NCBI RefSeq assembly: GCF_002899455.1
Contig: NZ_PPFB01000001.1
Location: forward strand, 2,882,501 to 2,946,500
Length of the DNA stretch: 64,000 nucleotides
Source: Streptomyces sp. DH-12
GTDB taxonomy: Bacteria > Actinomycetota > Actinomycetes > Streptomycetales > Streptomycetaceae
Direction: 5' to 3'
A model generated the notes under the pieces. That model made no database searches and was not told the DNA's origin. It worked only from the letters and a program-made list of their open reading frames with translations. Positions 9,166 to 24,357 of the stretch are shown one piece after another. Both the position numbers and the translations under genes were made by a program. The first letter of the stretch is position 1. Each line of letters opens with the position of its first letter.

Positions 9166-10146
9166 TCACCTCAGCTTCGGGTCGAGGGCGTCGCGCACCG
9201 CGTCGCCGAGCATGATGAACGCCAGCACCGTGATCGCCAGCGCCCCCGAGGGCCACAGCAGCGCGTGCGGGGCGTTGCGGATGTAGGGCGAGGCCGCGGA
9301 GATGTCGATGCCCCAGGAGACGCTGGGCGGCTTCAGCCCGACGCCGAGGTAGGACAGGGTCGCCTCCAGCGCGATGTACGTGCCCAGCGCGATGGTCGCG
9401 ACGACGATGACCGGGGCGACCGCGTTGGGCGCGATGTGGCGCAGCAGCAGCCGGGAGTGGGAGGCGCCGAGTGCCCGCGCGGCCTGCACGTAGTCGTTCT
9501 GTTTGGCGGTGATCACGGCGCCGCGCGCGATGCGGGAGATCTGCGGCCAGCCGAGCAGCACGATGAAGCCGATGACCGGCCAGACGGTGTTGCTGGTGAT
9601 GACGGAGAGCAGCACCAGACCGCCGAGGACGACCGGGATGGCGAAGAAGACGTCGGTGATCCGGGACAGGACGCTGTCCGCGACACCGCCGAAGAACCCG
9701 GCGAGCGCGCCCAGCACGCTGCCGAGGACCGCGACCCCGAGGGTGGCGAGCACCCCGACCGCGACGGAGGTGCGGGCGCCGTACACGGTGCGGGTGTAGA
9801 CGTCGCAGCCCTGCCCGTCGAAACCGAAGGGGTGGCCGGGCTGCGAACCCTCCTGCGCCTTGGACAGATCGCACTTCAGCGGGGAGCCGGAGGTGATGGC
9901 CGACGGCCACAGGGAGATGAAGACGAGGAACAGGATGACCAGCGCGGAGACGAGGAACACGGGGTTGCGGCGCAGGTCCCGCCAGGCGTCCGACCACAGG
10001 GAGCGGGGCCGTTCCTCCGGCCCGGCGCCGTCCGGTCCGGCCGGCTGCTTCTCCAGGGTCTCGGCCTCGTCGACGCCCAGGTCCATGGCGCCGCCCATGC
10101 CGGTCCCCGCGATGGCGGGGTCGCGTTCGTGATGACGGTCAGACAT
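9166..10146 (-). CDS. Peptide ABC importer permease (OppC/DppC type)
   Basis: A 326-aa inner-membrane permease. The first 55 residues are cytoplasmic and charged, then a membrane helix (about 60-80), an external loop with a conserved HPFGFDGQGCD region typical of DppC/OppC proteins, and five further helices. The EAA loop that contacts the ATPases is visible around YVQAARALGAS. The start overlaps the previous permease gene by eight bases. It forms the transmembrane pore with the OppB-type partner. Confidence 0.9.
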   Translation of the reverse strand: MSDRHHERDPAIAGTGMGGAMDLGVDEAETLEKQPAGPDGAGPEERPRSLWSDAWRDLRRNPVFLVSALVILFLVFISLWPSAITSGSPLKCDLSKAQEGSQPGHPFGFDGQGCDVYTRTVYGARTSVAVGVLATLGVAVLGSVLGALAGFFGGVADSVLSRITDVFFAIPVVLGGLVLLSVITSNTVWPVIGFIVLLGWPQISRIARGAVITAKQNDYVQAARALGASHSRLLLRHIAPNAVAPVIVVATIALGTYIALEATLSYLGVGLKPPSVSWGIDISAASPYIRNAPHALLWPSGALAITVLAFIMLGDAVRDALDPKLR

Positions 10147-11062
10147 AGCGGATCCTCGGGTCGAGCACGGCGTACAGGAGGTCGACGACGAGGTTGGCGA
10201 CGAGGAAGACCAGCACCAGGACGGTGACGAAGCCGACCACCGTCTGCGTGTTCTGCCGCAGGATGCCCTGGTAGAGCTGGTAGCCGACGCCGTGGATGTT
10301 GAAGATCCGCTCGGTGACGATCGCCCCGCCCATCAGGAAGCCGATGTCGGCGCCGATGAAGGTGACCACGGGGATCAGGGAGTTGCGCAGCAGGTGCCGG
10401 ACGACGACCCGGCGCCGGGGCAGGCCCTTGGCGATCGCGGTGCGGACGTAGTCGGAGCGGCGGTTCTCCGCGAGGGAGGTGCGGGTCAGCCGGGTGACGT
10501 AGGCGAGGGAGACCGACGCCAGCACCAGGCCGGGCAGGATCAGCTCGCCGAAGGGCGCCTCGGAGGACACCGAGGGCCGGATCCAGCCCCACTTCACGCC
10601 GAGCAGCAGCTGGAGCAGCAGACCGGTGACGAAGGTGGGCACGGAGATCACGACGAGGGTCAGCAGCAGCACCCCGGTGTCCACCGGCCGGCCCCGGCGC
10701 AGCCCGGTGACCACGCCGAGGGTGACGCCGACGGCGATCTCGAAGAGGATCGCGATCAGGGTGAGCCGGGCGGTGACGGGGAACGCCGTCGCCATCAGCT
10801 CGGTGACCTCCTGGCCGTTGAAGGCCGTGCCGAAGTCGCCGGTGAAGACGTTCCCCATGTACGTCAGGTATTGCTGCCAGACCGGCTTGTCGAGGCCGAA
10901 CTCCTGCTCCAGGCGGGCGGCCGTCGCCGGGTCGCACCGCCGCTCGCCGCAGAGTCCCGCGATGGGGTCGCCCATCACGTTGACCATGAGGAAGATCAGC
11001 AGCGTGGCCCCGACGAAGACCGGGATCATCTGGAGCAGCCGCCGGACGACGTAGCGCCCCAT
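10139..11062 (-). CDS. Peptide ABC importer permease (OppB/DppB type)
   Basis: A 307-aa permease beginning MGRYVVRRLLQMIPV, the standard N-terminus of OppB/DppB proteins, with six membrane helices and the EAA-type loop near YVRTAIAKGLP. It starts six bases after the binding-protein stop and overlaps the oppC-like gene by eight bases. It carries an external Cys pair (GLCGERRCD, about residues 37-45), also found at the equivalent place in the BldKC-like permease, which may form a disulfide. Confidence 0.9.
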   Translation of the reverse strand: MGRYVVRRLLQMIPVFVGATLLIFLMVNVMGDPIAGLCGERRCDPATAARLEQEFGLDKPVWQQYLTYMGNVFTGDFGTAFNGQEVTELMATAFPVTARLTLIAILFEIAVGVTLGVVTGLRRGRPVDTGVLLLTLVVISVPTFVTGLLLQLLLGVKWGWIRPSVSSEAPFGELILPGLVLASVSLAYVTRLTRTSLAENRRSDYVRTAIAKGLPRRRVVVRHLLRNSLIPVVTFIGADIGFLMGGAIVTERIFNIHGVGYQLYQGILRQNTQTVVGFVTVLVLVFLVANLVVDLLYAVLDPRIRYV

Positions 11063-11068
11063 GACCGC

Positions 11069-12691
11069 TCAGCTGACCTTGATCTCGTTGTAGACGGGGA
11101 CGCTGAAGGGGTTGAGCTCGACGTCGGAGAGCCGCTCGGACCAGCCGGCGCTGCCGTTCTGGTACCAGAGCGGGATCGCGGCCATGTTGTCGCGGACCAC
11201 TTCCTCCGCCTGCTGGAACAGGCCGACGGCCTCGGCGGTGTCGGTCTCCTGGTTGGCGCGGTCCACCAGGTCGTCGAACTCCTCGTTCGACCACTGGCCG
11301 TCGTTGGACGAGGCGTTGGTGTAGTACAGCGGCTGGAGGAAGTTCTGGATGAGCGGGTAGTCCATCTGCCAGCCGGCCCGGAACGGCCCGGTCATCTTCC
11401 GGTCGGTGATCTCGTTGCGGAAGTCCGCGAAGGTGCCGACCGGGTTGGCGGTGCAGGCGCGCTCGTCGTCCAGCGCGTTGTTGATGGAGTTGCAGACGGC
11501 GTTGACCCACTCGCGGTGGGAGCCGGTGTCGGCGTTGAAGGTGATGGTCACCCCGCCGCCGGGCAGTCCGCCGCCCTCCTCGATCAGCTTCTTCGCCTCG
11601 TCGGGCTTGAACTCGCAGTACTCGCCGCACAGTCCCTCCTGGAAGCCGCCGTCCTCGCCGAGCACCGGGGAGGTCCAGTCGGTGGCGGGGGTGCGGGTCT
11701 TCTGGAAGATCGTGTCGGTGATCTGCTCGCGGTCGATCGCCATGGACAGGCCCTGGCGGACCTTCGTCGCGCCCTCGGTGTTCCAGGCGTCGTCGTAGAA
11801 CGGGAAGGCGAGGGTCTGGATGATGCCGGCGGGGGTGTTGAGGTAGCGGTCGCCCAGGTCGTTCCTCACGTTCTTCAGCTGCGCGGCCGGCACGTCGTCG
11901 ACCAGGTCGAGGTTGCCGGCCAGCAGGTCGGTGTAGGCGGTGTTGTTGTCGGTGTAGACCTTCAGGTCGACGCCGCCGTTCTGCGCCTTGTCGTCGCCCG
12001 GGTAGTCGTCCCACGCGCGCAGCGACATCTGCGAACCGCGGGTGTAGGACTCGACCAGATAGGGCCCGTTGCCGACGGGCTTGCGCACCCAGGCGTCGTG
12101 GTCGTCGAAGAACGCCCGGGGCAGCGGGGCGAACGCCGCGTAGCCGAGGGTGTCGGGGAACGTGGAGAACTTCTGGCTGAGCCTGACGGTGAAGGTGCGC
12201 TCGCCGGTCACCCTCAGCCCGGACAGGGTGTCCGCCGTCTGCTCGCCCTCCTCCGGGTGCACCTGGTCGTAGCCCTCGATGTAGCTGAAGAAGTACGCGT
12301 TGCGCTGGTTGTTGCGCAGGCTCGCGCCGTAGTTCCAGGCGTCCACGAAGGACTGGGCGGTGACCTTCTCGCCGTTGCTGAAGGTCCAGCCGTCCTTGAC
12401 GGTGACGGTGAAGTTCTGCGAGTCCGAGGTCTCGATCCTCTCGGCGAGCATGTCCTGCGCCTCGCCGGTCTCCGGGTCGTACCGCTTCAGGCCCCGGAAG
12501 ATCATGTCGAGGACCTTGCCGCCCTGCACCTCGTTGGTGTTCGACGGCTCCAGCGGGTTCTGCGGATCGCCCCAGGAGGCGCTCAGCACGGCACTGGAGT
12601 CGCCGCTGCCGCCCCCGCCGCCGCACCCCGCCGCGGCGAGGACGAGCGCCATCGCGCAGACGGCCCGTCCGGCGTGCGTGGTGGTGCGCAT
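11069..12691 (-). CDS. Peptide-binding lipoprotein of an ABC importer (SBP family 5)
   Basis: A 540-aa extracellular solute-binding lipoprotein. The signal peptide has a lipobox ending AAGC with lipidated Cys23, followed by a Gly/Ser linker and a family 5 (oligopeptide/dipeptide/nickel) binding domain, with the NPLEPSNTNEV and TGEAQDMLAE regions near its start. Start ATG 12689-12691 is preceded by a GAGGAGG ribosome site; the longer reading adds 75 residues of Arg/Pro-rich non-coding translation. First gene of the five-gene importer operon. Here the binding protein leads, unlike the adjacent BldK-type operon, where it is second. The ligand is unknown; family members bind oligopeptides. Confidence 0.9.
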   Translation of the reverse strand: MRTTTHAGRAVCAMALVLAAAGCGGGGGSGDSSAVLSASWGDPQNPLEPSNTNEVQGGKVLDMIFRGLKRYDPETGEAQDMLAERIETSDSQNFTVTVKDGWTFSNGEKVTAQSFVDAWNYGASLRNNQRNAYFFSYIEGYDQVHPEEGEQTADTLSGLRVTGERTFTVRLSQKFSTFPDTLGYAAFAPLPRAFFDDHDAWVRKPVGNGPYLVESYTRGSQMSLRAWDDYPGDDKAQNGGVDLKVYTDNNTAYTDLLAGNLDLVDDVPAAQLKNVRNDLGDRYLNTPAGIIQTLAFPFYDDAWNTEGATKVRQGLSMAIDREQITDTIFQKTRTPATDWTSPVLGEDGGFQEGLCGEYCEFKPDEAKKLIEEGGGLPGGGVTITFNADTGSHREWVNAVCNSINNALDDERACTANPVGTFADFRNEITDRKMTGPFRAGWQMDYPLIQNFLQPLYYTNASSNDGQWSNEEFDDLVDRANQETDTAEAVGLFQQAEEVVRDNMAAIPLWYQNGSAGWSERLSDVELNPFSVPVYNEIKVS

Positions 12692-13030
12692 GGGTGCCTC
12701 CTCGTGCCCGGGTCCCTTACCGGGCCAGCCTGGGAGCGGACGCCCCGGCGTGCACGCCCGCCGGGGCCGTACGGGTACGGGGGTCGTCCGGACGGGCCAG
12801 CGCGGAGCCGTGAGCCGTACGCCCCGCAGCCTCGGGCGGGCGCGGGGAGCAGCCGGCCGAACCCGCGTGGCCTCCGCGTCACGGACACGGTGCGCGAGGG
12901 CCGGGCGGGCGCGCACGAGGCCACCGGGCGGCTCCGGGGGCGGCGGGCTCCGGACCGGGCACGCGAAAGGACCGGGGGCGGGAGGGTGTCCTCCCGCCCC
13001 CGGTCCTTTCAGGGGCCTGCGGTGAAGGGG
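12692..13030. other. Intergenic region between the two peptide importer operons
   Basis: 339 bp without a credible gene. It must contain the promoter of the downstream importer operon and holds the terminator of the BldK-type operon at 12965-13010. Nothing else distinctive was seen. Confidence 0.6.
12965..13010 (-). terminator. Perfect 21-bp hairpin terminator of the BldK-type operon
   Basis: 12965-12985 and 12990-13010 are perfect reverse complements (21 bp) around a GTGT loop, located 20 bp after the stop of the last BldK-type gene. The stem starts GAAAGG and ends CCTTTC. There is no T-run, as is common for Streptomyces terminators. Confidence 0.85.
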
Positions 13031-14155
13031 TCAGTCCTTGGCGGCGTCCCCGTCCTTCTCCAGCGCCTTCAGGGCCGGGTCCAGTACGACGTCCTCGCCA
13101 CGCGCCTCGACGGTGGGCTCCTCCGGGAAGTGGCACGCCGTCAGGTGGCCCTCGGTGTTGCCCTCGATCCGCACCAGCGGCGGCTCCTCGGTGGCGCACT
13201 TGTCCTGCGCCTTCCAGCAGCGCGTGCGGAACCGGCAGCCGGACGGCGGCGAGATCGGCGAGGGGACGTCACCGGCGAGGCGGATGCGCTCGCGGTTCTC
13301 CGCCTCGTCGTCCATGGCCACCTCGGGCACGGCCGACAGCAGGGCGTGGGTGTAGGGGTGCCGCGGGCGGTTGTAGATGGAGTCGCGGTCGCCGACCTCG
13401 ACCACCTTGCCCAGGTACATCACGGCCACGCGCTGCGAGAAGTGCCGCACGACGGCCAGGTCGTGGGCGATGAAGAGAAAGGCGATGCCCATCTCTTCCT
13501 GCACCTTCTGCAGCAGGTTGACGACCTGCGCCTGGATCGACACGTCGAGCGCGGAGACCGGCTCGTCCGCCACGATCAGCTTCGGGTTGAGCGCGAGCGC
13601 CCGGGCGACGCCGATGCGCTGGCGCTGGCCGCCGGAGAACTCGTGCGGGAAGCGGTTGTAGTGCTCGGGGTTCAGGCCGACGAGCTCGAGCAGCTCGCGG
13701 ACCCGCTTCTCCCGGCCGCCCGCGGGGTCGATCCCGTTGACCTCCATCGGCGACTTGATGATCGTGCCGACGGTCTGCCGCGGGTTCAGCGAGGAGTACG
13801 GGTCCTGGAAGATCATCTGGATCTCGGACCGGACCGGCGCCAGCTGCCTGCGCTTGGCGTGCGTGATGTCCTGGCCCGCGTACTCGATCTTCCCGCCGGT
13901 CGGCTCCAGGAGCCGGGTGATGAGCCGGCCCGTGGTCGACTTGCCGCAGCCCGACTCACCCACCAGGCCGACGCTCTCGCCGACGCCGACGGTCAGGTCG
14001 ACGTTGTCGACGGCCTGCACGGCACCGACCTTCCGCTTGATCGGAAAGCCGCCGTAGATCGGGAAGTGCTTGGTCAGGCCCTCCACCTTCAGCAGCGCCT
14101 CGGTCGACGCGCCGGTGGAGCCCTGCTGTGCGGGGAGGGTGAGGTTGTCGCTCAT
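13031..14155 (-). CDS. bldKE: BldKE-like peptide importer ATP-binding protein
   Basis: A 374-aa ABC ATPase with Walker A GESGCGKS (near residue 60), signature [16 protein letters not shown], Walker [13 protein letters not shown], and the oligopeptide C-terminal extension with GCRFRTRCW. Fifth and last gene of an operon whose order (permease C-type, lipoprotein, permease B-type, ATPase, ATPase) matches bldKA-bldKE of S. coelicolor. There BldK imports an extracellular peptide signal needed to start aerial growth. Gap to the preceding ATPase is 13 bp. The C-terminal tail after about residue 335 is acidic and variable. The name rests on gene order and family, not on alignment. Confidence 0.85.
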   Translation of the reverse strand: MSDNLTLPAQQGSTGASTEALLKVEGLTKHFPIYGGFPIKRKVGAVQAVDNVDLTVGVGESVGLVGESGCGKSTTGRLITRLLEPTGGKIEYAGQDITHAKRRQLAPVRSEIQMIFQDPYSSLNPRQTVGTIIKSPMEVNGIDPAGGREKRVRELLELVGLNPEHYNRFPHEFSGGQRQRIGVARALALNPKLIVADEPVSALDVSIQAQVVNLLQKVQEEMGIAFLFIAHDLAVVRHFSQRVAVMYLGKVVEVGDRDSIYNRPRHPYTHALLSAVPEVAMDDEAENRERIRLAGDVPSPISPPSGCRFRTRCWKAQDKCATEEPPLVRIEGNTEGHLTACHFPEEPTVEARGEDVVLDPALKALEKDGDAAKD

Positions 14156-14168
14156 GTCTCGGATCTCC

Positions 14169-15230
14169 CTAGCGCAGCCGGGGCTGGATCTTGTCGATGA
14201 AGATGGTCTGCTTCTGCTCTGCCGTCAGGTGGCAGGCAGCGGCGCGGCCTTCGCCCAGCAAGGGCCGCTCGGTGCTGCAGCGGTCGCCCGACACCTTGTC
14301 CGTGAACGTGCAGCGCGGGTGGAACGGGCAGCCGGACGGCGGGTTCAGCAGGCTGGGCGGCGAGCCGGGGATCGGCATGAGGGGCTGCGAGGTGCTCCCG
14401 CCGAGGCGCGGCATCGAGCTGAGCAGACCCCAGGTGTAGGGGTGCCGCGGCTCGCGCAGCACCTCGCGGACGCTGCCGCGCTCCACGGCCCGGCCGGAGT
14501 ACATCACCAGCAGGTCGTCGGCCATGTCGGAGATGACGCCGAGGTCGTGGGTGATGAAGATGATCGCCGACCCGAACTCCTGCTGGAGGTCCTTGAGCAG
14601 GTCGAGGATCTGGGCCTGGACGGTCACGTCGAGGGCGGTGGTCGGCTCGTCCGCGATCAGCAGGTCGGGGTCGCAGACCAGCGCCATGGCGATCATGGCG
14701 CGCTGGCGCATACCGCCGGAGAACTGGTGCGGGTAGTCGTCCACGCGGGTCTTGGGCTGCGGGATGCCGACCTTGGCCAGCATCTCGATCGCCCGCTCCC
14801 GCGCCTCCTTCTTGGAGGCGCCGGTGTGCTTCATGAACGGCTCGGCGATCTGCCGGCCCACCGTGTAGTACGGCGAGAGCGCCGTCAGCGGGTCCTGGAA
14901 GATCATCGCGACCTTGTTGCCGCGGAGCTTCTCCATCTCCTTCTCAGGAGTGGTCACCAGGTCCTGGCCCTCGAGGAGGATCTCGCCCTCGACCGTGGTG
15001 GTCTTGGGGTTGTGCAGCCCGAGCACGGTCAGGTTGGTCACGGACTTGCCGGAACCCGACTCGCCCACGATGCCCAGGGTCTTGCCGCGCTCGACGTCGA
15101 AGGACAGCCCGTCGACCGCCTTGACGATGCCGTCCTCGGTGGAGAACCGCACCCGCAGGTCGCGGACCGAGAGGAAGGACTCGGGCCCGGTCGGGGCCTT
15201 CTCGCCTTCGGTCTTGGTCAGTGTGGTCAC
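14169..15230 (-). CDS. bldKD: BldKD-like peptide importer ATP-binding protein
   Basis: A 353-aa ABC ATPase with Walker A GESGSGKS (near residue 56), signature [16 protein letters not shown], Walker [13 protein letters not shown], and the C-terminal Cys motif [10 protein letters not shown]. It starts at GTG 15228-15230, ten bases after the permease stop, and is the fourth gene of the BldK-type operon. It forms a heterodimer with the BldKE-like ATPase on the cytoplasmic side. Length and domain order are normal for the OppD group. Confidence 0.85.
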
Positions 15231-15240
15231 GGTGTTTCTC

Positions 15241-16218
15241 CTAGCTGAGCCGTACGCGCGGGTCGATGAAGGCGTAGGCGAGGTCGACGAGGATGTTCAG
15301 GAGCAGGATGAAGAACGCTCCGAACAGCATGACACCCATGGTCACCGGCAGGTCCTTCGTCAGTGACGAATCGACCGCGAGACGGCCGATGCCGGCCAGG
15401 TCGAAGGTGAACTCGGTGACCACCGCGCCGGACAGCAGGGCGCTGAGGTCCATGCCGAGGATGGTGACGATGGGGATCAGGGAGCCGCGCCAGGCGTAGC
15501 GGAAGAAGACGTAGCTCCGGCGCATGCCCTTGGCGCGCGCGGTGCGGACGTGCTCCTCCTGCAGCTGCTCGATCATCGTCGAGCGGGACATACGGGTGTA
15601 CTGCGCGGTGAAGATGGTGGCCATGACCACCCAGGGGATGAGCATCCCCAGGAACCAGGCCCCGGGCTCATCGGTGAAGTTGTAGTACTTCGGGAACTCC
15701 ATGATGCCCGTGCTGTAGACCAGCAGGCCGAGGACGATCGGGCCGAGCAGGTAGATCTGGAAGGAGCTGAGCACGATCGAGGCGCCGCTGACGATCTTGT
15801 CGACCACGGTGCCGCGCTTCCAGGCGGCCAGCAGACCCGAGCCGAGGCCCAGGATCAGGAAGATCACGAGACCGCCGACGGTCAGCGACAGCGTCAGCGG
15901 GAAGCGGTCGATGATGGAGTCCCAGACGAACTCGCCGCTGTCGAAGGAGACACCCAGGCACGGCGCGGAGCAGTGCCCCTGCGGGAAGTCGCGGCCGGCC
16001 ACGATGCCCGTCATGAACTCCCAGAACTGGGTGGTGATGGGCTTGTCCAGGCCCAGGTTCTCGCGGATCACCGCGAGGTTCTCGGGCGAGCAGTTCTTGC
16101 CGCAGGACAGCGCAGCGAAGTCCTGAGGAACTGTATAGAACAGGAAGAACGTGAAGGCGCCGATCAGGAACATGATGACGACGGCGCCGGTCAGCCTGCG
16201 GATGAGGAACTGAAGCAT
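15241..16218 (-). CDS. bldKC: BldKC-like peptide importer permease (OppB type)
   Basis: A 325-aa permease beginning MLQFLIRRLTGAVV with six predicted membrane helices and an EAA-type loop near VRTARAKGMR. The first external loop contains two Cys pairs (SCGKNCS and HCSAPC), which are unusual and may form disulfides outside the membrane. It pairs with the OppC-type BldKA-like permease encoded first in the operon. It is separated from the upstream lipoprotein gene by a 104-bp spacer that holds a strong hairpin. Confidence 0.85.
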   Translation of the reverse strand: MLQFLIRRLTGAVVIMFLIGAFTFFLFYTVPQDFAALSCGKNCSPENLAVIRENLGLDKPITTQFWEFMTGIVAGRDFPQGHCSAPCLGVSFDSGEFVWDSIIDRFPLTLSLTVGGLVIFLILGLGSGLLAAWKRGTVVDKIVSGASIVLSSFQIYLLGPIVLGLLVYSTGIMEFPKYYNFTDEPGAWFLGMLIPWVVMATIFTAQYTRMSRSTMIEQLQEEHVRTARAKGMRRSYVFFRYAWRGSLIPIVTILGMDLSALLSGAVVTEFTFDLAGIGRLAVDSSLTKDLPVTMGVMLFGAFFILLLNILVDLAYAFIDPRVRLS

Positions 16219-16267
16219 GGCGGGTGGATGCTCTCTTCGAAACGCGGCGGCAGGTAGGGGGTACCGT

Positions 16268-16305
16268 CCGCGGGGGTGTGCTCCGCCTGGCGCACACCCC
16301 CGCGG
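16268..16305 (-). promoter_or_regulatory. Intercistronic hairpin between bldKB-like and bldKC-like genes
   Basis: CCGCGGGGGTGTGC (16268-16281) and its exact reverse complement (16292-16305) form a 14-bp stem with a 10-base loop between the lipoprotein and permease genes. A structure like this in a binding-protein operon can attenuate transcription or protect the upstream mRNA from 3-prime decay, raising lipoprotein levels above the membrane proteins. Confidence 0.7.
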
Positions 16306-16322
16306 TCAGCCGAACCGAGGGC

Positions 16323-18125
16323 TTACGGCTGCTTCAGGTACAGGTCGGTGATGTTGATGTAGCTCGACTCGGTGCTGTACCTGGCGCCACCGATGTTCGA
16401 TCCGTAGAGCTGGATCTGCTTCGAGTAGTAGACCGGTGCGGCCGGGTTGACCTCCTCGACGATGCGGTGGTGCGCCTGCTCCCAGGTCTTCGCCGCCTCC
16501 TCGGGCTCCTGCTTCAGGGCCTTCTGGATGAGCGCGTTGACCTGCTTGTCGTTCATGTGCGAGTAGTTGGACGCGCCGTCGGCGACCAGCTCACCGTCGT
16601 AGACGGGGGTGATGACCGTGGACGGGGACGGCCAGTCCTGGCCCCAGCCGGTCATGTAGATGTCGTACGGGTTGTTCAGCTTGCCGATCTGCTCGTAGAA
16701 GCTGGCCCGGTCGATCTCCTTGGCCTGGACGTCGAAGCCGATCTTCTCCAGCGCGTCCTTGATGATGACCTGCTGGGCCTGGCCGCGCGGCGTGTTGGAG
16801 TAGGCGTAGGTGAGCTTCGTGCCCTCCTTGACACCCGCCTCCTTCAGCAGCTCCTTGGCCTTCTCCGGGTCGCCGTTGGGCTTCTTCAGCTTGCCGAACG
16901 GGTCGTACGTCGCGTCGAAGCCCGGCAGGGTCGGGGCGAGCAGACCGCCGGCGACCTCACCGCCGTAGCGGCCGCCGTCCGCCTGGACCATGGACTGGTT
17001 CGGGATCGCGTAGGTGATCGCGTCGCGGACCTTCTTGTCCTTCAGGCGGTCCATGTTGAAGGTGAGCTGCCACACGTAGGGCTGGTAGCCCTGGATGGTC
17101 CGCTTCTTGGTCTCCGGGTTGGTGACCACGTCGGACATCTGGGCCGGGTCCACCGAGTCGGTGAACTGGATGGCGTTCTTCGCCTCGCCCTGGTCGGAGA
17201 TCAGGCGCTTGGTCTGGCTGGGCTGGGAGACCGTGTTGGTGAAGTTGAAGCCGTCGACGTACTGGTGGCGCACGGCGTCGGTCTTCGGGTCCCACTGGTC
17301 GTTCTTGACCAGCTTCATGGACTTGCCCGGCTTGTACTCGGCGATCTTGTACGGGCCGAGGGCCGCGGGCGCCTTGTCGTACTTCTCCTTCGTGTCCTGC
17401 TTGGCGGGCACGATGGAGTAGCCGGCCATGGCCAGGGCCTGCGGCAGGTCCGGACGCGGCTGGTCGAACTTGAAGACGACGGTCTTGTCGTCCGGCGTCT
17501 CGAGGACGGTGTCCGGCAGGTGCTTGCCCTTGTAGGGGCCGTCCGGCAGCGCCTTGCGGTAGTCGTTGCCCGAGAGCCAGGTCTGGATGTAGGTCGGACC
17601 GTCGAAGATGACCTTCGAGTACATGCGCTCGATGGTGTGGCGGACGTCGGCCGAGGTGATCTCGTTGCCGTCCTCGTCCTTGATGCCGTCCTTGAGCTTG
17701 TACGTCCAGACCTTGCCGCCCTCGGAGGACTGGCCGGAGTCGGTGGCGATGTCGCCGACGACGGTCAGGTTGCCCTGCTCGTCCTCCTGGAAGTTGGTCA
17801 GACCGCGGTGGATCAGGTTGGAGAACTGGCCGGCGTCGCTGACGTAGATCTGGCCCGGGTCCATGTGGGACAGGTCCGACTGCATGTAGACGTTGATGAA
17901 GCCGCCGGACTTGGCGCCCTGGACGTCCTTCGCCGGGCCGGTCGACGCGGCGGCGTCACCGTAGGCGACAGGGTCCTGCTGCTCGGCGGCGTCCTTCTGG
18001 GACTTCGCGTCGCTCTTGCCCTTGCCGCCGCCGTTGTCGTTGCTGGAGCAGCCGGTGAGGGCCAGCGAGCCTGCCACGATGGCCACGGCTATGGCGCGCG
18101 CGGTACGCGTTCTGATGGGCTTCAT
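16323..18125 (-). CDS. bldKB: BldKB-like oligopeptide-binding lipoprotein
   Basis: A 600-aa family 5 solute-binding lipoprotein. The signal peptide ends in the lipobox LTGC with Cys26, followed by a Ser/Asn/Gly/Lys linker and then the binding domain with conserved regions such as YMQSDLSHMDP and GYSIVPAK. Start ATG 18123-18125 is chosen because it gives a proper signal peptide; the extra 29 residues of the longer frame do not. In S. coelicolor BldKB is the extracellular receptor for the signalling peptide of the bld cascade and is needed for aerial mycelium formation. Size and operon position match. Lysine content is higher than in neighbouring proteins. Confidence 0.87.
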   Translation of the reverse strand: MKPIRTRTARAIAVAIVAGSLALTGCSSNDNGGGKGKSDAKSQKDAAEQQDPVAYGDAAASTGPAKDVQGAKSGGFINVYMQSDLSHMDPGQIYVSDAGQFSNLIHRGLTNFQEDEQGNLTVVGDIATDSGQSSEGGKVWTYKLKDGIKDEDGNEITSADVRHTIERMYSKVIFDGPTYIQTWLSGNDYRKALPDGPYKGKHLPDTVLETPDDKTVVFKFDQPRPDLPQALAMAGYSIVPAKQDTKEKYDKAPAALGPYKIAEYKPGKSMKLVKNDQWDPKTDAVRHQYVDGFNFTNTVSQPSQTKRLISDQGEAKNAIQFTDSVDPAQMSDVVTNPETKKRTIQGYQPYVWQLTFNMDRLKDKKVRDAITYAIPNQSMVQADGGRYGGEVAGGLLAPTLPGFDATYDPFGKLKKPNGDPEKAKELLKEAGVKEGTKLTYAYSNTPRGQAQQVIIKDALEKIGFDVQAKEIDRASFYEQIGKLNNPYDIYMTGWGQDWPSPSTVITPVYDGELVADGASNYSHMNDKQVNALIQKALKQEPEEAAKTWEQAHHRIVEEVNPAAPVYYSKQIQLYGSNIGGARYSTESSYINITDLYLKQP

Positions 18126-18226
18126 GATGCCGATGCACCTACCTGTCGATAGTTGTCCACGAGTTGCTGCCTGACAGTCCGGTAGCCCGGCCGGGGGCGG
18201 CAGCTCCCCCACCCACCAATGGACGT

Positions 18227-19267
18227 TCAGCGTCCGGTCTTGGGGTCGAATGCGTCCCGGACGGAGTCTCCGAGAAGGTTGAAGGCAAGAACGAAGATCA
18301 CCAGCGCCGCTCCCGGGAAGAGCAGGAACATCGGGTCCTGCTCGTACACCTCGGTGCCGACCTTGAACATGCGGCCCCAGTCCGGGGTCGGCTCGACGAA
18401 GCCGACGCCGATGAACGAGAGGAAGGCGATGGTGAGGATCGTGCTCGGCAGGATGTAGGTCGCCTGCACCAGGATCGGGGTGACGATGTTCGGCAGGATC
18501 TCCTTGCGCACGATGCGCCCGGGAGGGGCGCCGGACACCTTGGCCGCCTCGACGAACTCACGGTCCCTCAGCGACAGCACGGAGCTGCGCACCAGACGGG
18601 ACAGACCCATCCAGCCGAGGAACCACATCACGAGGATGATCGCCACGGCCCGCAGGTAGGTGGGGGTCTCGTCCTGCGGATCGACGAACATCGCGGTGAC
18701 GACGGGCATGAAGGCGATGAAGAACAGCTGCTGGGGGAAGCCCAGGAAGAAGTCCGTCACCCGGCCGAGCCAGTAGTCGACGCGGCCGCCGAAGTAACCG
18801 CCGATCATGCCGATGATCACGCCCGTGATCACGCTGAGCAGCGTGACGACCACGGCCATGTACAGCGACGTCCGCATGCCGTACAGCAGCATCGTGAACA
18901 CGTCGCGGCCCAGCTTGGGCTCGACGCCGAACCAGAACTCGCCCGACATGCCGCCGAAGGAACCGTTCGGCATGGCGAAGTCGTCGAGGAGGAAGGGGTA
19001 GTCGGGCTCCTGGGCGTACAGCGTGTAGGGGTCCTTGCCGTACAGCTTGGAGATCACCGGCGCCAGCGCGGCCACCACGAAGAAGAAAATGACCACGCAC
19101 GCGGAGACGACTCCGGTACGGTCACGCTTGAAGCGCTGCCACATCAACTGGCCGGGGGAACGGCCCTCGGGCTGCTTCTCGCCCTGGGCGACATCGTTGG
19201 TCGCCGTGAGCTCGGGGTCCAAGACAGCCGCGGACCCGGAGTCCTCGGCCTTAGTTGGACTGGTCAT
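18227..19267 (-). CDS. bldKA: BldKA-like peptide importer permease (OppC type)
   Basis: A 346-aa permease with a 50-residue cytoplasmic N-terminus (MTSPTKAEDSG...), a membrane helix (about 55-78), an external loop including KLGRDVFTMLLYG, and five further helices with the EAA loop near FVEAAKVSGAPP. First gene of the BldK-type operon, 101 bp ahead of the lipoprotein gene. It starts at ATG 19265-19267 with a GGGGG ribosome site nine bases upstream. OppC-type length is normal. Placing a permease gene before the binding-protein gene matches the bldK operon and distinguishes this cluster from the neighbouring importer. Confidence 0.87.
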   Translation of the reverse strand: MTSPTKAEDSGSAAVLDPELTATNDVAQGEKQPEGRSPGQLMWQRFKRDRTGVVSACVVIFFFVVAALAPVISKLYGKDPYTLYAQEPDYPFLLDDFAMPNGSFGGMSGEFWFGVEPKLGRDVFTMLLYGMRTSLYMAVVVTLLSVITGVIIGMIGGYFGGRVDYWLGRVTDFFLGFPQQLFFIAFMPVVTAMFVDPQDETPTYLRAVAIILVMWFLGWMGLSRLVRSSVLSLRDREFVEAAKVSGAPPGRIVRKEILPNIVTPILVQATYILPSTILTIAFLSFIGVGFVEPTPDWGRMFKVGTEVYEQDPMFLLFPGAALVIFVLAFNLLGDSVRDAFDPKTGR

Positions 19268-19757
19268 CGTGTTCGTCCCCCGGGGGGTTGGAGAGTTGAG
19301 CGCAGCACAGATACCGGCAGGTTCTGCGGTTTGGGGGAACTTTCGCCAAGAGAGTCAACGCGCGTCAAGGGCGTACGGCATAGGGATCTCCCTACCGTCG
19401 TTTTTTTGAGGAAATATTGCAGAGATCGACACCTGCGCGCGCTTGACACCTCTGAACCGAATTCGGCAATTCGGACATTCGGTGCGCATTTTTGGTTTAC
19501 ATGTCCGAAACCCGCGTGCGTGATCACCGATATGCGAACGAGATGTTGCGTTTGCCGGAAGCACGTGCGACCGCCCGGAGACGTCCGCCCCTCCGGACGC
19601 CGGCCCTCCCGGCCCCGGGCCCTCCGGCACGCGCGGGCGGTGCGGGTGGCGGCCCCGTACCATGGAGGAAGGCCGAGGCGTGTCCAGCCCGGCAGTGCCC
19701 TCGCACCACAGACGTCTGCGGCGGGCGACCTTCACCACCCCCGGGAGTACGCCTTTC
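19268..19757. other. Divergent regulatory region between bldKA-like gene and typA
   Basis: 490 bp without a gene. It is noticeably AT-rich from about 19390 to 19540, including a run of seven T (a run of A on the bldK strand) near 19400. It must contain the bldK promoter (minus strand) and the typA promoter with a fairly long leader (plus strand). Candidate -35-like TTGAC sequences occur on the bldK strand near 19355-19372, but no clear pair was identified. Confidence 0.6.
19457..19482. promoter_or_regulatory. Phased ATTCGG array and CCGAATTCGG palindrome
   Basis: The hexamer ATTCGG occurs three times exactly eight bases apart (starts 19461, 19469, 19477); the first belongs to a perfect 10-bp palindrome CCGAATTCGG (19457-19466). 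It lies about 190-215 bp upstream of the bldKA-like start and about 275 bp upstream of typA. It is a good candidate for a multi-subunit regulator site. Confidence 0.55.
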
Positions 19758-21674
<1,917 letters not shown>

Positions 21675-21692
21675 TCACCGCACCGCGAACGT

Positions 21693-21732
21693 GACGCGGC
21701 CCGGCGCCCCGGTGGGGGCGCCGGGCCGCGTC
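21693..21732. terminator. Bidirectional 18-bp hairpin terminator after typA
   Basis: 21693-21710 pairs perfectly with 21715-21732 around a GGTG loop. It lies between the convergent typA and solute-binding lipoprotein genes, 18 bp after the typA stop. Confidence 0.85.
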
Positions 21733-21752
21733 GCGGTTCCCGGCCGGTCCGG

Positions 21753-24047
21753 TCAGCTCCCGGAGGAGGACGCGCTGTTCCTCGCCCCCGGCGACCCCTC
21801 GGCCCCCTGTGCCGACTTCTTCAGGAAGCCCATGTCCTCGTAGACCGGTGCGGCGAAGCCGAAGGCGCCGGCGTTGGCGAGGTCCTTGCGGGCCGCGACG
21901 AGCTGCGGGCGCTGGTAGAGGGGGATGGAGCCGGCCGCCGCCCAGATCCGGGAGTCGGCCTTGCGGATCAGGTCGCGCCGCTCGGCGTCGTCGAGGGTGG
22001 CGATGGCCTGGTCGAAGAGCTGGTCCACCTGGTCGGTCCCGACGCGGGTCCAGTTCTGCTCCACGTTCAGCGAGCCGTCGGCGGCCGGGACCGGCTTGGA
22101 GTAGACGGGGCGGGCGTCGGTGGCGGGGAAGGCGGTCGCGGGCCAGGAGTACAGGGCCAGGTCGAAGTCGCCGGACGCGATGTGGTCCTTGAAGTAGCTG
22201 TCGTCGTCGACCTTGGAGATGTCGGTGCGGATGCCGATCCTCTCCAGCATCGTCGCGATCCGGCCGGCCACGGTCTCCAGCGTCTGCGAGCCGGGCCCCG
22301 ACGGCAGCACGAACCGCAGCACGAGCGCCTTGCCGTCCTTGGCGACCGGGGCCGTGTCCGCGCGGGCCGGGGCCGCGGTGCCCTGGGGGGCGTAGGCGCC
22401 GGCGGGGGCGCCGCCGCTCTGCTTCAGCGTGCCGGCGCCGGTGTCCGGGTCGTGCGGGGCCTTGCCGTCGCCGTGGTTCTTCCCGTCGTCCTCGCCGACG
22501 ATGTACGTGCCGTCGTCACCGTCCCCGTCGCCGGACTCCCCGGAGCCGTCCGAGTCCCCGGAGTCTCCGGAGCCGCCCGCCTCGTCCTCGTCCGCCTCGG
22601 AGCCGGCCGCCTCGGAGCCGGCCGCCTTCTCCCCCGCGTCCTTCTTCTCCCCGTCCTTCTTCTCGTCCTCGTCCTTCTCCTTCTCCTCCTTCACCGGACC
22701 GCCCGGCACCCATCCGGCGTCCGAGAGCAGAGCCCTGGCCTCCTTGGCGTCCGGCGTGCCGAGGGCGCCGCTGCCGTCGGCGTAGGCGGCCTGGCCGGGC
22801 AGCGCCAGGTGGCTGCCGACGGGCTCGGCGGGCAGGCCGAGCGGCTTCAGCACGGCCCCGGCGATGTCCTCGCGGTCCAGGGCTCGAGCCACGGCCCGGC
22901 GGACCCGCTCGTCGGAGAGGGGTCCCTCGGCGCCGTTGAGGGCGAGCTGGGTGTAGGCGGGCTCCAGTGACGCGCGCACCTCGAAGCCGCCGAGCGCCTT
23001 CTGCTGCCGGGCGTACTTCTCGGCCTTCTTGCGCAGCTTCTCGCGGGCGGAGATCTCCTCGTCGGCGGCGTCCTCGTCGGAGCCGTGGGCGACCGCCCAG
23101 GAGCGCAGCGCGTCCGCGGCGGAGCGGTCGGCCTCGGGACCCATCAGGGGCGCGTCGCCGTCCTGCGGCAGGGCGGCGACCGTGATGCGGCGGGCGGCCT
23201 CGGGGCCGACCTCGGCCAGGTCGAGGGTGCCGTCGCTGAGCGCGGAGACGCGCTCGTCGTGCGGCACGGCGCGCAGCACGATCTTCTTCAGCTTGGCCGG
23301 GCTGCCCCACCAGCGCGGATTGCGGGCGAGGACGACCTCGTCCCCCTCGGTGTCCACCTCGTCCACCGTGAACGGCCCGGCGGTGACCTTCAGCTTCTTG
23401 CGCGCCCCGTCGTTGAAGGAGTCCGGGGTGCCCATGACCTCCTTGGGGTAGAGCGGGGTGAACAGCGACTTCCAGTCGGCGTAGCGGCGGCTGAAGGTGA
23501 CCTTGACCTCGAGGTCGTTCGCGCCGCGCTCGACCTTCTCGATGCGGTCGTAGCCGGCGTTGCGGGCGGTCCAGTAGGCGGTGTCCTTGCCGGACAGGGC
23601 GCGCCACTGTGCGGCGAAGTCGGCGGCGCCGATCTCCCGGCCGTCGCTCCAGACGGCCTGCTGGGCGAGCCGGTAGACGACCACCTGCCTGGGCTCGGTG
23701 TCGACGACCTCGGCGGAGGCCAGGTAGTCGGCGTTGCGCACGGCCCGGCCCCGGCCGTCCGTGCGGTACATCGACGGCAGTACGGCCTCGGCGATCCGGG
23801 CGGTGGTGGTGTCGGCGTCGGCCTGGAAGGTGTTCAAGGTGTCCGGGACGGTGTCCACGGCCCAGCGCAGGGTCCCGCCGTCGGCGATGTCGGACCGGTC
23901 CGCGCCCGCGACGTCCGCGCCCGCGAGCGGCTTGCCCGCGGGGTCCTCGGAACCGCACCCGGTGAGGGCGGGCACGGTGAGCACGCCGGCGGTGAGGAAG
24001 GCGACCGAACGCAGGACCGCGCGCGGTCCGATGCCGTCGTGGGACAT
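21753..24047 (-). CDS. Orphan family 5 solute-binding lipoprotein with acidic insertion
   Basis: A 764-aa peptide-binding-type lipoprotein. The lipobox is ALTGC (Cys31), followed by a family 5 binding domain with DGGTLRWAVDTVPDTLN at its start. The domain is interrupted at about residues 453-560 by a low-complexity insert rich in Glu, Lys, Asp, Gly and Ser. Binding-domain sequence resumes at LVLRFVLPSG and ends near QRPQLVAARKDL. No permease or ATPase genes adjoin it, so it either serves a remote importer, shares the neighbouring peptide importers, or has a sensing role. Start ATG 24045-24047 has a GGAGG ribosome site nine bases upstream. The insertion makes it much longer than typical members (500-600 aa). 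Confidence 0.85.
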   Translation of the reverse strand: MSHDGIGPRAVLRSVAFLTAGVLTVPALTGCGSEDPAGKPLAGADVAGADRSDIADGGTLRWAVDTVPDTLNTFQADADTTTARIAEAVLPSMYRTDGRGRAVRNADYLASAEVVDTEPRQVVVYRLAQQAVWSDGREIGAADFAAQWRALSGKDTAYWTARNAGYDRIEKVERGANDLEVKVTFSRRYADWKSLFTPLYPKEVMGTPDSFNDGARKKLKVTAGPFTVDEVDTEGDEVVLARNPRWWGSPAKLKKIVLRAVPHDERVSALSDGTLDLAEVGPEAARRITVAALPQDGDAPLMGPEADRSAADALRSWAVAHGSDEDAADEEISAREKLRKKAEKYARQQKALGGFEVRASLEPAYTQLALNGAEGPLSDERVRRAVARALDREDIAGAVLKPLGLPAEPVGSHLALPGQAAYADGSGALGTPDAKEARALLSDAGWVPGGPVKEEKEKDEDEKKDGEKKDAGEKAAGSEAAGSEADEDEAGGSGDSGDSDGSGESGDGDGDDGTYIVGEDDGKNHGDGKAPHDPDTGAGTLKQSGGAPAGAYAPQGTAAPARADTAPVAKDGKALVLRFVLPSGPGSQTLETVAGRIATMLERIGIRTDISKVDDDSYFKDHIASGDFDLALYSWPATAFPATDARPVYSKPVPAADGSLNVEQNWTRVGTDQVDQLFDQAIATLDDAERRDLIRKADSRIWAAAGSIPLYQRPQLVAARKDLANAGAFGFAAPVYEDMGFLKKSAQGAEGSPGARNSASSSGS

Positions 24048-24357
24048 CTCTGGATACCTCCGGAAAGCCGCGGGCACGGTGATCACACGTGATATGGGGT
24101 GTTCATCCGATGTATGCGGCCCACTGAAGAGGAAAGGGTTCTGCATTCCCGGGCGACACGGCGGCCGGGGACGGCGTGCCACCCGTGCGGCGCAACGCAC
24201 CCGGCGGGACACGGCCGCGCACCGGACGATGCACCCATGGGCCTCGGCCAATCGATGCACATCCCTTCACAGCGCAAGGTGTGACGCGCAACACTCTCAG
24301 GCGCATGACCGTTGCACCGCCTTGGGCCTGAAGGACCCGTGGAAGTGAGGTCACGTC
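24048..24357. other. Divergent promoter region, binding-protein gene and sdh-linked small gene
   Basis: 310 bp with no credible gene. It should hold divergent promoters for the lipoprotein gene (minus) and the small coiled-coil gene (plus). No strong inverted repeat or clear -35/-10 pair was recognised. Confidence 0.5.

Follow-up and report, generated by a model that had tools for sequence, protein, structure and literature searches.

The spacer between bldKB and bldKC in the bldK operon of Streptomyces sp. DH-12 carries a well-conserved hairpin that adds a new case to a known type, that of the hairpins found after binding-protein genes, and its constant loop is an extra feature. The hairpin lies on the minus strand at positions 16268 to 16305 of the window, by which we mean the whole 64,000-nucleotide stretch of contig NZ_PPFB01000001.1 that was analyzed. 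It probably acts as a U-less partial terminator or as a 3'-end stabilizer, giving an excess of the binding protein over the rest of the transporter.

Identity of the operon and its neighbors

The five genes of the operon lie on the minus strand in the order permease, binding protein, permease, ATPase, ATPase, which is the BldK order as given for SCO5112-5116 of S. coelicolor (PMC3924187). The first gene, bldKA (18227 to 19267), codes for a DppC-type permease with PF00528 and PF12911 domains. It is followed by bldKB (16323 to 18125), which codes for a 600-residue lipoprotein of the extracellular solute-binding protein family 5 (PF00496, 233 bits), by bldKC (15241 to 16218), coding for a DppB-type permease (PF19300 and PF00528), and by the ATPase genes bldKD (14169 to 15230) and bldKE (13031 to 14155), the last of the operon, whose products both have PF00005 and PF08352.

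S. coelicolor harbors a second, similar operon, SCO5476-5480 (PMC3924187). We took the Lys425 region of S. coelicolor BldKB from the primers printed in PMC11303876 and found this site in 8 of 246 Streptomyces genomes, always in a protein 59 to 61% identical to the binding protein of the window. Six of these eight genomes were searched whole, and in each the Lys425-site protein was the best match, the next one being only 32 to 35% identical. The typA gene adjoins the operon in 72 of 80 loci. The window's binding protein is most likely, on these comparisons, the BldKB ortholog and not the SCO5476-5480 paralog, an assignment made through the Lys425-site proteins of relatives. The description of the locus as a BldK-type operon in the original prediction was therefore right, as judged by gene order, Pfam domains and orthology to the Lys425-site proteins.

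Other features of the neighborhood were recorded. In the window and in 16 of the 72 typA-bearing loci, the operon and typA are divergent; in the other 56 they run in the same direction, indicating that part of the genus carries a local inversion (18227 to 21674). In loci L053 to L082, L078 apart, BldKB is 60 to 68% and BldKC about 65 to 73% identical to the proteins of the window, as against 82 to 96% for TypA in seven loci. By these values, the receptor part of the BldK signal importer appears to evolve fast among Streptomyces lineages. Beyond bldKE and the hairpin at the end of the operon (12965 to 13010) lies a second peptide-transporter binding-protein gene. On the other side, the family-5 binding-protein gene at 21753 to 24260 has in its middle a long insert that is acidic and rich in Gly and Ser.

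The bldKB-bldKC hairpin

Read directly from the sequence, the hairpin has 14 perfect pairs, formed by arms at 16268 to 16281 and 16292 to 16305. They enclose a 10-nt loop at 16282 to 16291 (minus strand, GCCAGGCGGA), in which motif counts in relatives identified the last six bases, GGCGGA, as the constant part. The structure is carried by the coding strand, 17 nt 3' of the bldKB stop codon (TAA, 16323 to 16325) and 49 nt 5' of the bldKC start codon (ATG, beginning at 16218 on the minus strand). RNAfold recovered the 14-bp stem from the minus strand, and a 121-nt stretch containing it had a z score of -2.31 relative to dinucleotide shuffles, 7 of 200 of which folded equally well or better. The strong, perfect 14-bp stem that had been predicted between the lipoprotein and permease genes was confirmed at exactly 16268 to 16305, and fold, conservation and covariation concur with the reading of the sequence.

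The stem is not followed by a U tract, as only one U is present in the eight bases 3' of it. It thus does not have the U-rich tract of a canonical intrinsic terminator, and a terminator scan of positions 10000 to 22000 listed none at the hairpin. This lack of U argues against plain intrinsic termination. A search of the same stretch with the Rfam covariance models gave nothing overlapping 16268 to 16305 up to an E value of 1; the only matches were to microRNA models, all of them below the gathering scores and located elsewhere in the stretch. The spacer is not a repeat of the genome either, since at an E value of 0.001 or less its sole other match was the hairpin's own opposite strand.

Long stems are frequent in this genome. 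In 2.064 Mb, 141 stems had 14 or more perfect pairs and a loop of 3 to 12 nt, whereas two resamplings under a first-order Markov model had 1.0 on average; base composition therefore does not explain them. An initial sample of 1.264 Mb contained 90 stems with at least 14 pairs, and 60 of them were outside genes and near a gene 3' end, meaning from 15 nt inside the gene to 80 nt past its end. Hairpins like that at 16268 to 16305 are an ordinary class, the gene-end hairpins that a high-G+C genome usually has. Close to the operon, an 18-pair hairpin at 21693 to 21732 separates typA from a third family-5 binding-protein gene, the two genes being convergent, and probably serves as a gene-end hairpin in both directions.

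Stems of at least 14 pairs are uncommon in same-strand spacers of 60 to 150 nt (15 of 211, a set based on crude gene calls in which some gene pairs may be separate units). Perfect stems of at least 12 pairs occur in 26 of these 211 spacers, compared with three of the six junctions, bldK included, at which a binding-protein gene precedes a permease gene with a gap of at least 60 nt in the same genome, the permeases in this survey being recognized by eye. The three are bldK, L249 and L250, while L233 has 10 pairs, L087 an imperfect stem only and L231 none. Junctions of this type with gaps under 60 nt mostly have no such stem.

Conservation of the hairpin in related loci

We then examined the best 80 of 165 related loci, all titled Streptomyces and leaning to close relatives, and called the hairpin at a fixed gapless score of 10. 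It exceeded this threshold in 79 of the 80, and in the remaining locus, L047, the stem forms only with a bulge. Family- and order-wide samples provided 53 further loci, of which 49 were scored; four relatives among the 53 have spacers of 3 to 6 nt, too short for a hairpin. Over all sources, including the window and the eight Lys425-site loci, 129 of 138 scored rows passed. The window is present twice among these rows, as itself and as L175, and genomes may recur among sources, which makes distinct spacers the better count. Of those, 114 of 123 passed, namely 84 of the 87 at a binding-protein identity of at least 58% and 30 of the 36 below that value.

The nine spacers under the threshold belong to the distant loci L191, L196, L201, L203, L219 and L220 and to the nearer loci L047, L205 and L260, the last being the single failure among the eight Lys425-site loci. 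These failures and the very short spacers indicate that some lineages manage without the hairpin. Where it is present, its place is similar, with medians over the 114 distinct spacers of 16 nt after the stop codon (range, 5 to 43) and 49.5 nt before the start codon, and 107 of the 114 have at most two U residues in the eight bases after the stem. The locus thus has a stable stem-loop right after the binding-protein gene and ahead of the translocator genes, the arrangement that characterizes the stoichiometry hairpins of ABC operons.

Compensatory changes in the stem

Covariation was determined in two alignments, separated by loop length, which together contain 43 of the 44 distinct hairpins with the loop motif, one with a 9-nt loop being left out. 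Among the 20 hairpins with 8-nt loops, 11 of the 14 pairs have changed on both sides, 92.5% of the cells are paired, and covariation was 0.435, compared with 0.161 in shuffled alignments. The 23 hairpins with 10-nt loops gave 6 of 14 pairs changed on both sides, 96.3% of cells paired, and 0.204 compared with 0.133. In neither set did any of 500 shuffles reach the observed value, although the shuffles ignore relatedness and the excision of rows around the hairpin favors pairing, though not double changes. Sliding the partners reduced covariation to at most 0.106 (8-nt loops) and 0.073 (10-nt loops). A single alignment of the 44 hairpins, mixing 8- and 10-nt loops, was discarded, as it misplaced pairs: 82.6% of the cells were paired, and covariation after a slide of +2 (0.252) was higher than in register (0.174).

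The compensatory changes identify the hairpin as an RNA structure, and the pattern of substitutions shows that 16268 to 16305 is constrained at the RNA level.

Transcript levels and proposed mechanism

The original prediction proposed that the hairpin might keep the binding protein at a higher level than the transporter, or might control read-through, and that a step down in RNA-seq coverage across it would support this. The predicted drop is present in gene-level values for the orthologous pair of a relative, S. lividans: BldKB has 168 and BldKC 43 TPM in the reference strain, and in a producer strain the values are 314 and 125 TPM, respectively (PMC6302529). From these values, we computed bldKB:bldKC ratios of 3.9 and 2.5, respectively; the comparison covers the bldKB and bldKC genes. 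This step, the conservation of the structure with compensatory change, and precedents in other bacteria (PMC9045158, PMC5927463) together support a binding protein level above that of the transporter.

We infer that the hairpin causes the drop between the bldKB and bldKC transcripts. It would act in the RNA of the operon, forming just past the bldKB stop codon once RNA polymerase has transcribed bldKA and bldKB, and a fraction of the transcripts would end there. They might do so by either of two routes. RNA polymerase might be released at the hairpin, which would then be a U-less, partial terminator, or a longer transcript might be cut downstream and trimmed from its 3' end until the stem halts the exonuclease. 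By both routes, a stable message would stop after bldKB and a minority of transcripts would go on into bldKC, bldKD and bldKE, so that more binding protein would be made than membrane and ATPase components. The step in S. lividans could have another cause, such as an internal promoter.

A bldKB complementation clone of S. coelicolor, which restored the wild-type phenotype (PMC11303876), counts against the preferred reading. The reverse primer used for it has 15 gene-matching bases, and when these are placed on the near relative L258, they stop at the opening bases of the 5' arm. By this match, the S. coelicolor clone apparently ends inside the 5' arm and should be devoid of the hairpin. Complementation by an apparently hairpin-less clone suggests that the full hairpin is not needed for the production of enough BldKB in that setting. 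Its role may be more in limiting the downstream genes, which were outside the reach of the clone. Separately, bldKA (SCO5112) is tabulated in a study of RNase III-binding mRNAs and antisense transcripts (PMC5775266), and RNase III could also act on the bldK operon.

The constant loop and alternative explanations

At binding-protein identities of at least 58%, 80 of the 87 distinct spacers have a loop with GGCGGA (77) or one of the one-base variants TGCGGA and GGCGAA (3). The motif was found in none of the 36 distinct spacers below 58%, in which the hairpin is retained with other loops. On the binding-protein gene tree, it is present in 92 of 101 taxa, and two Fitch changes account for this distribution. 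Within the 92 taxa, which were picked for the presence of the motif so that the 101-taxon count is the fairer figure, the six loop sites have undergone two changes in total, compared with 0 to 11 at each stem site and a mean of 10.7 at 53 fourfold-degenerate sites. The hairpin at the end of the operon, after bldKE (12965 to 13010, minus strand; read from the sequence as 21 pairs with the loop acac), was used as an internal control. Of 78 related loci, two of the 80 being unreadable, 40 have it with at least 10 perfect pairs, and by eye its loops vary freely, with no constant one among them. The constant loop of the bldKB-bldKC hairpin is a feature that the known stoichiometry mechanism does not need, and it hints at an added contact.

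Such a contact might be made by an RNA-binding protein or a small RNA that lands on the hairpin and reads the GGCGGA loop, making the step between bldKB and bldKC adjustable. We consider this tentative and on balance unlikely. A loop that stays constant while its stem is rewritten, a motif whose presence changed just twice over 101 taxa, and the free variation at the operon-end hairpin speak for this explanation, and the difference between the S. lividans strains in the bldKB:bldKC ratio (PMC6302529) is a weak hint in the same direction. However, the 92-taxon count rests on taxa selected for the motif, the hairpins of distant relatives carry other loops, and there is no known factor. Moreover, GGCGGA is rare in other loops of the same genome: of 294 hairpins with 11 or more pairs in 2.064 Mb, 3 others have it (expected, 0.7), which does not imply a widespread factor. 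A pattern search of the genome for the loop and its neighbors with up to two mismatches was uninformative, since the two strands gave 172 and 187 matches and the reversed control gave more (271 and 291). Similarly unlikely is a regulated switch, in which a lineage-specific RNA-binding protein or small RNA would use the GGCGGA-capped hairpin to set the amount of the developmental peptide transporter BldK per binding protein according to growth stage.

The hairpin might alternatively be a complete terminator, with bldKC to bldKE transcribed from a promoter of their own. Its strong stem is located at the usual distance past a stop codon, as are the gene-end hairpins elsewhere in this genome. Nevertheless, of the 50 sites 5' of the bldKC start, the outermost 22 changed 11 to 26 times each in the 92 taxa and the next 11 changed 3 to 13 times, and the outer spacer thus has no conserved promoter-like block. 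This suggests that bldKC depends on read-through from bldKB. In addition, a simple scan of positions 10000 to 22000 found no sigma-70-like site, a weak test for Streptomyces, and bldKB and bldKC increase together in the S. lividans data (PMC6302529). Complete termination is therefore improbable. Closer to bldKC, a constant GAGAGC (16230 to 16235, minus strand), with about one change per site at positions -17 to -11 in the 92 taxa, is the probable ribosome-binding stretch; at 11 nt 5' of the start codon it is rather distant for such a site, and few positions in the spacer are as constant.

About as improbable is a pseudoknot in which the loop pairs with a CCGCC ahead of the bldKC ribosome-binding site and limits translation of the permease. 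CCGCC occurs downstream of the hairpin in 75 of the 80 distinct spacers with the motif, but it is also found in 19 of 35 distant spacers without it. For three of seven loop variants, representing six spacers, the match is better to leaders from the variant's own group than to leaders from other groups; L071, for instance, has 7 bp, and in L256 and L258 CTGCGG is opposite CCGCAG. The other four variants show no preference for their own leaders, and by eye a mismatch is retained in some loci with variant leaders (L257, L260). The 5-bp match of the window was no better than in shuffles (P = 0.705), and P values of 0.05 or less were obtained for only 7 of the 80 spacers. Pairing between loop and leader was thus unsupported for the window and is a weak lead for other lineages. 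Finally, the site might be a DNA palindrome bound by a regulator, its length being sufficient for a dimer; this is hardly credible given that the arms change yet stay complementary, that the center is the most constant part, and that the site is between genes and not at the start of the operon.

Comparison with known systems and significance

The preferred reading, a partial terminator or 3'-end stabilizer, has counterparts elsewhere. In ABC operons of Ruminiclostridium cellulolyticum, stem-loops after binding-protein genes are described as internal terminators (PMC9045158). They share with the bldK hairpin a position right after the binding-protein gene, a long G+C-rich stem and less U than in canonical terminators. 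In those operons the binding-protein transcript exceeds the translocator transcript (PMC9045158), and the S. lividans values run the same way for bldKB and bldKC (PMC6302529). The R. cellulolyticum terminators differ in retaining some U-rich tract, of which the bldK hairpin has almost none, and a constant loop is not among the features described for them in that report (PMC9045158).

For the second route, the malE-malF intercistronic structure of Escherichia coli was reportedly described by Newbury in 1987. It consists of repetitive palindromes that recur genome-wide, whereas the bldK spacer occurs once. This structure, after the binding-protein gene, shields the message from 3'-to-5' decay, and the message of the downstream permease decays faster (PMC5927463). 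The same source reports 3'-protecting structures in E. coli more broadly, with the binding-protein gene being the one stabilized in five ABC systems. Within Streptomyces, 353 of 1,427 mapped 3' ends of S. clavuligerus were assigned to a highly structured, U-lacking class, HS-U-lack (PMC8269248). The bldK hairpin resembles it in having a strong stem without a U tract in a Streptomyces genome; that class is defined by mapped 3' ends, whereas the bldK hairpin is known from sequence.

In the literature on bldK, Streptomyces terminators and binding-protein stem-loops, we found no title or abstract opening that describes a bldKB-bldKC hairpin, and the name bldK is absent from the main text of three Streptomyces transcriptome papers (PMC6742748, PMC4681348, PMC8780764). 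Beyond the earlier observation of the stem, this analysis adds the deep conservation of the hairpin and its constant loop. With this case, the range of binding-protein stoichiometry hairpins comes to include a high-G+C actinobacterial operon. In Streptomyces, aerial growth and antibiotic production are started by the signal that BldK imports (PMC11303876), and a conserved RNA element governing how much receptor-like binding protein there is relative to the pore would be a post-transcriptional layer in the BldK pathway.
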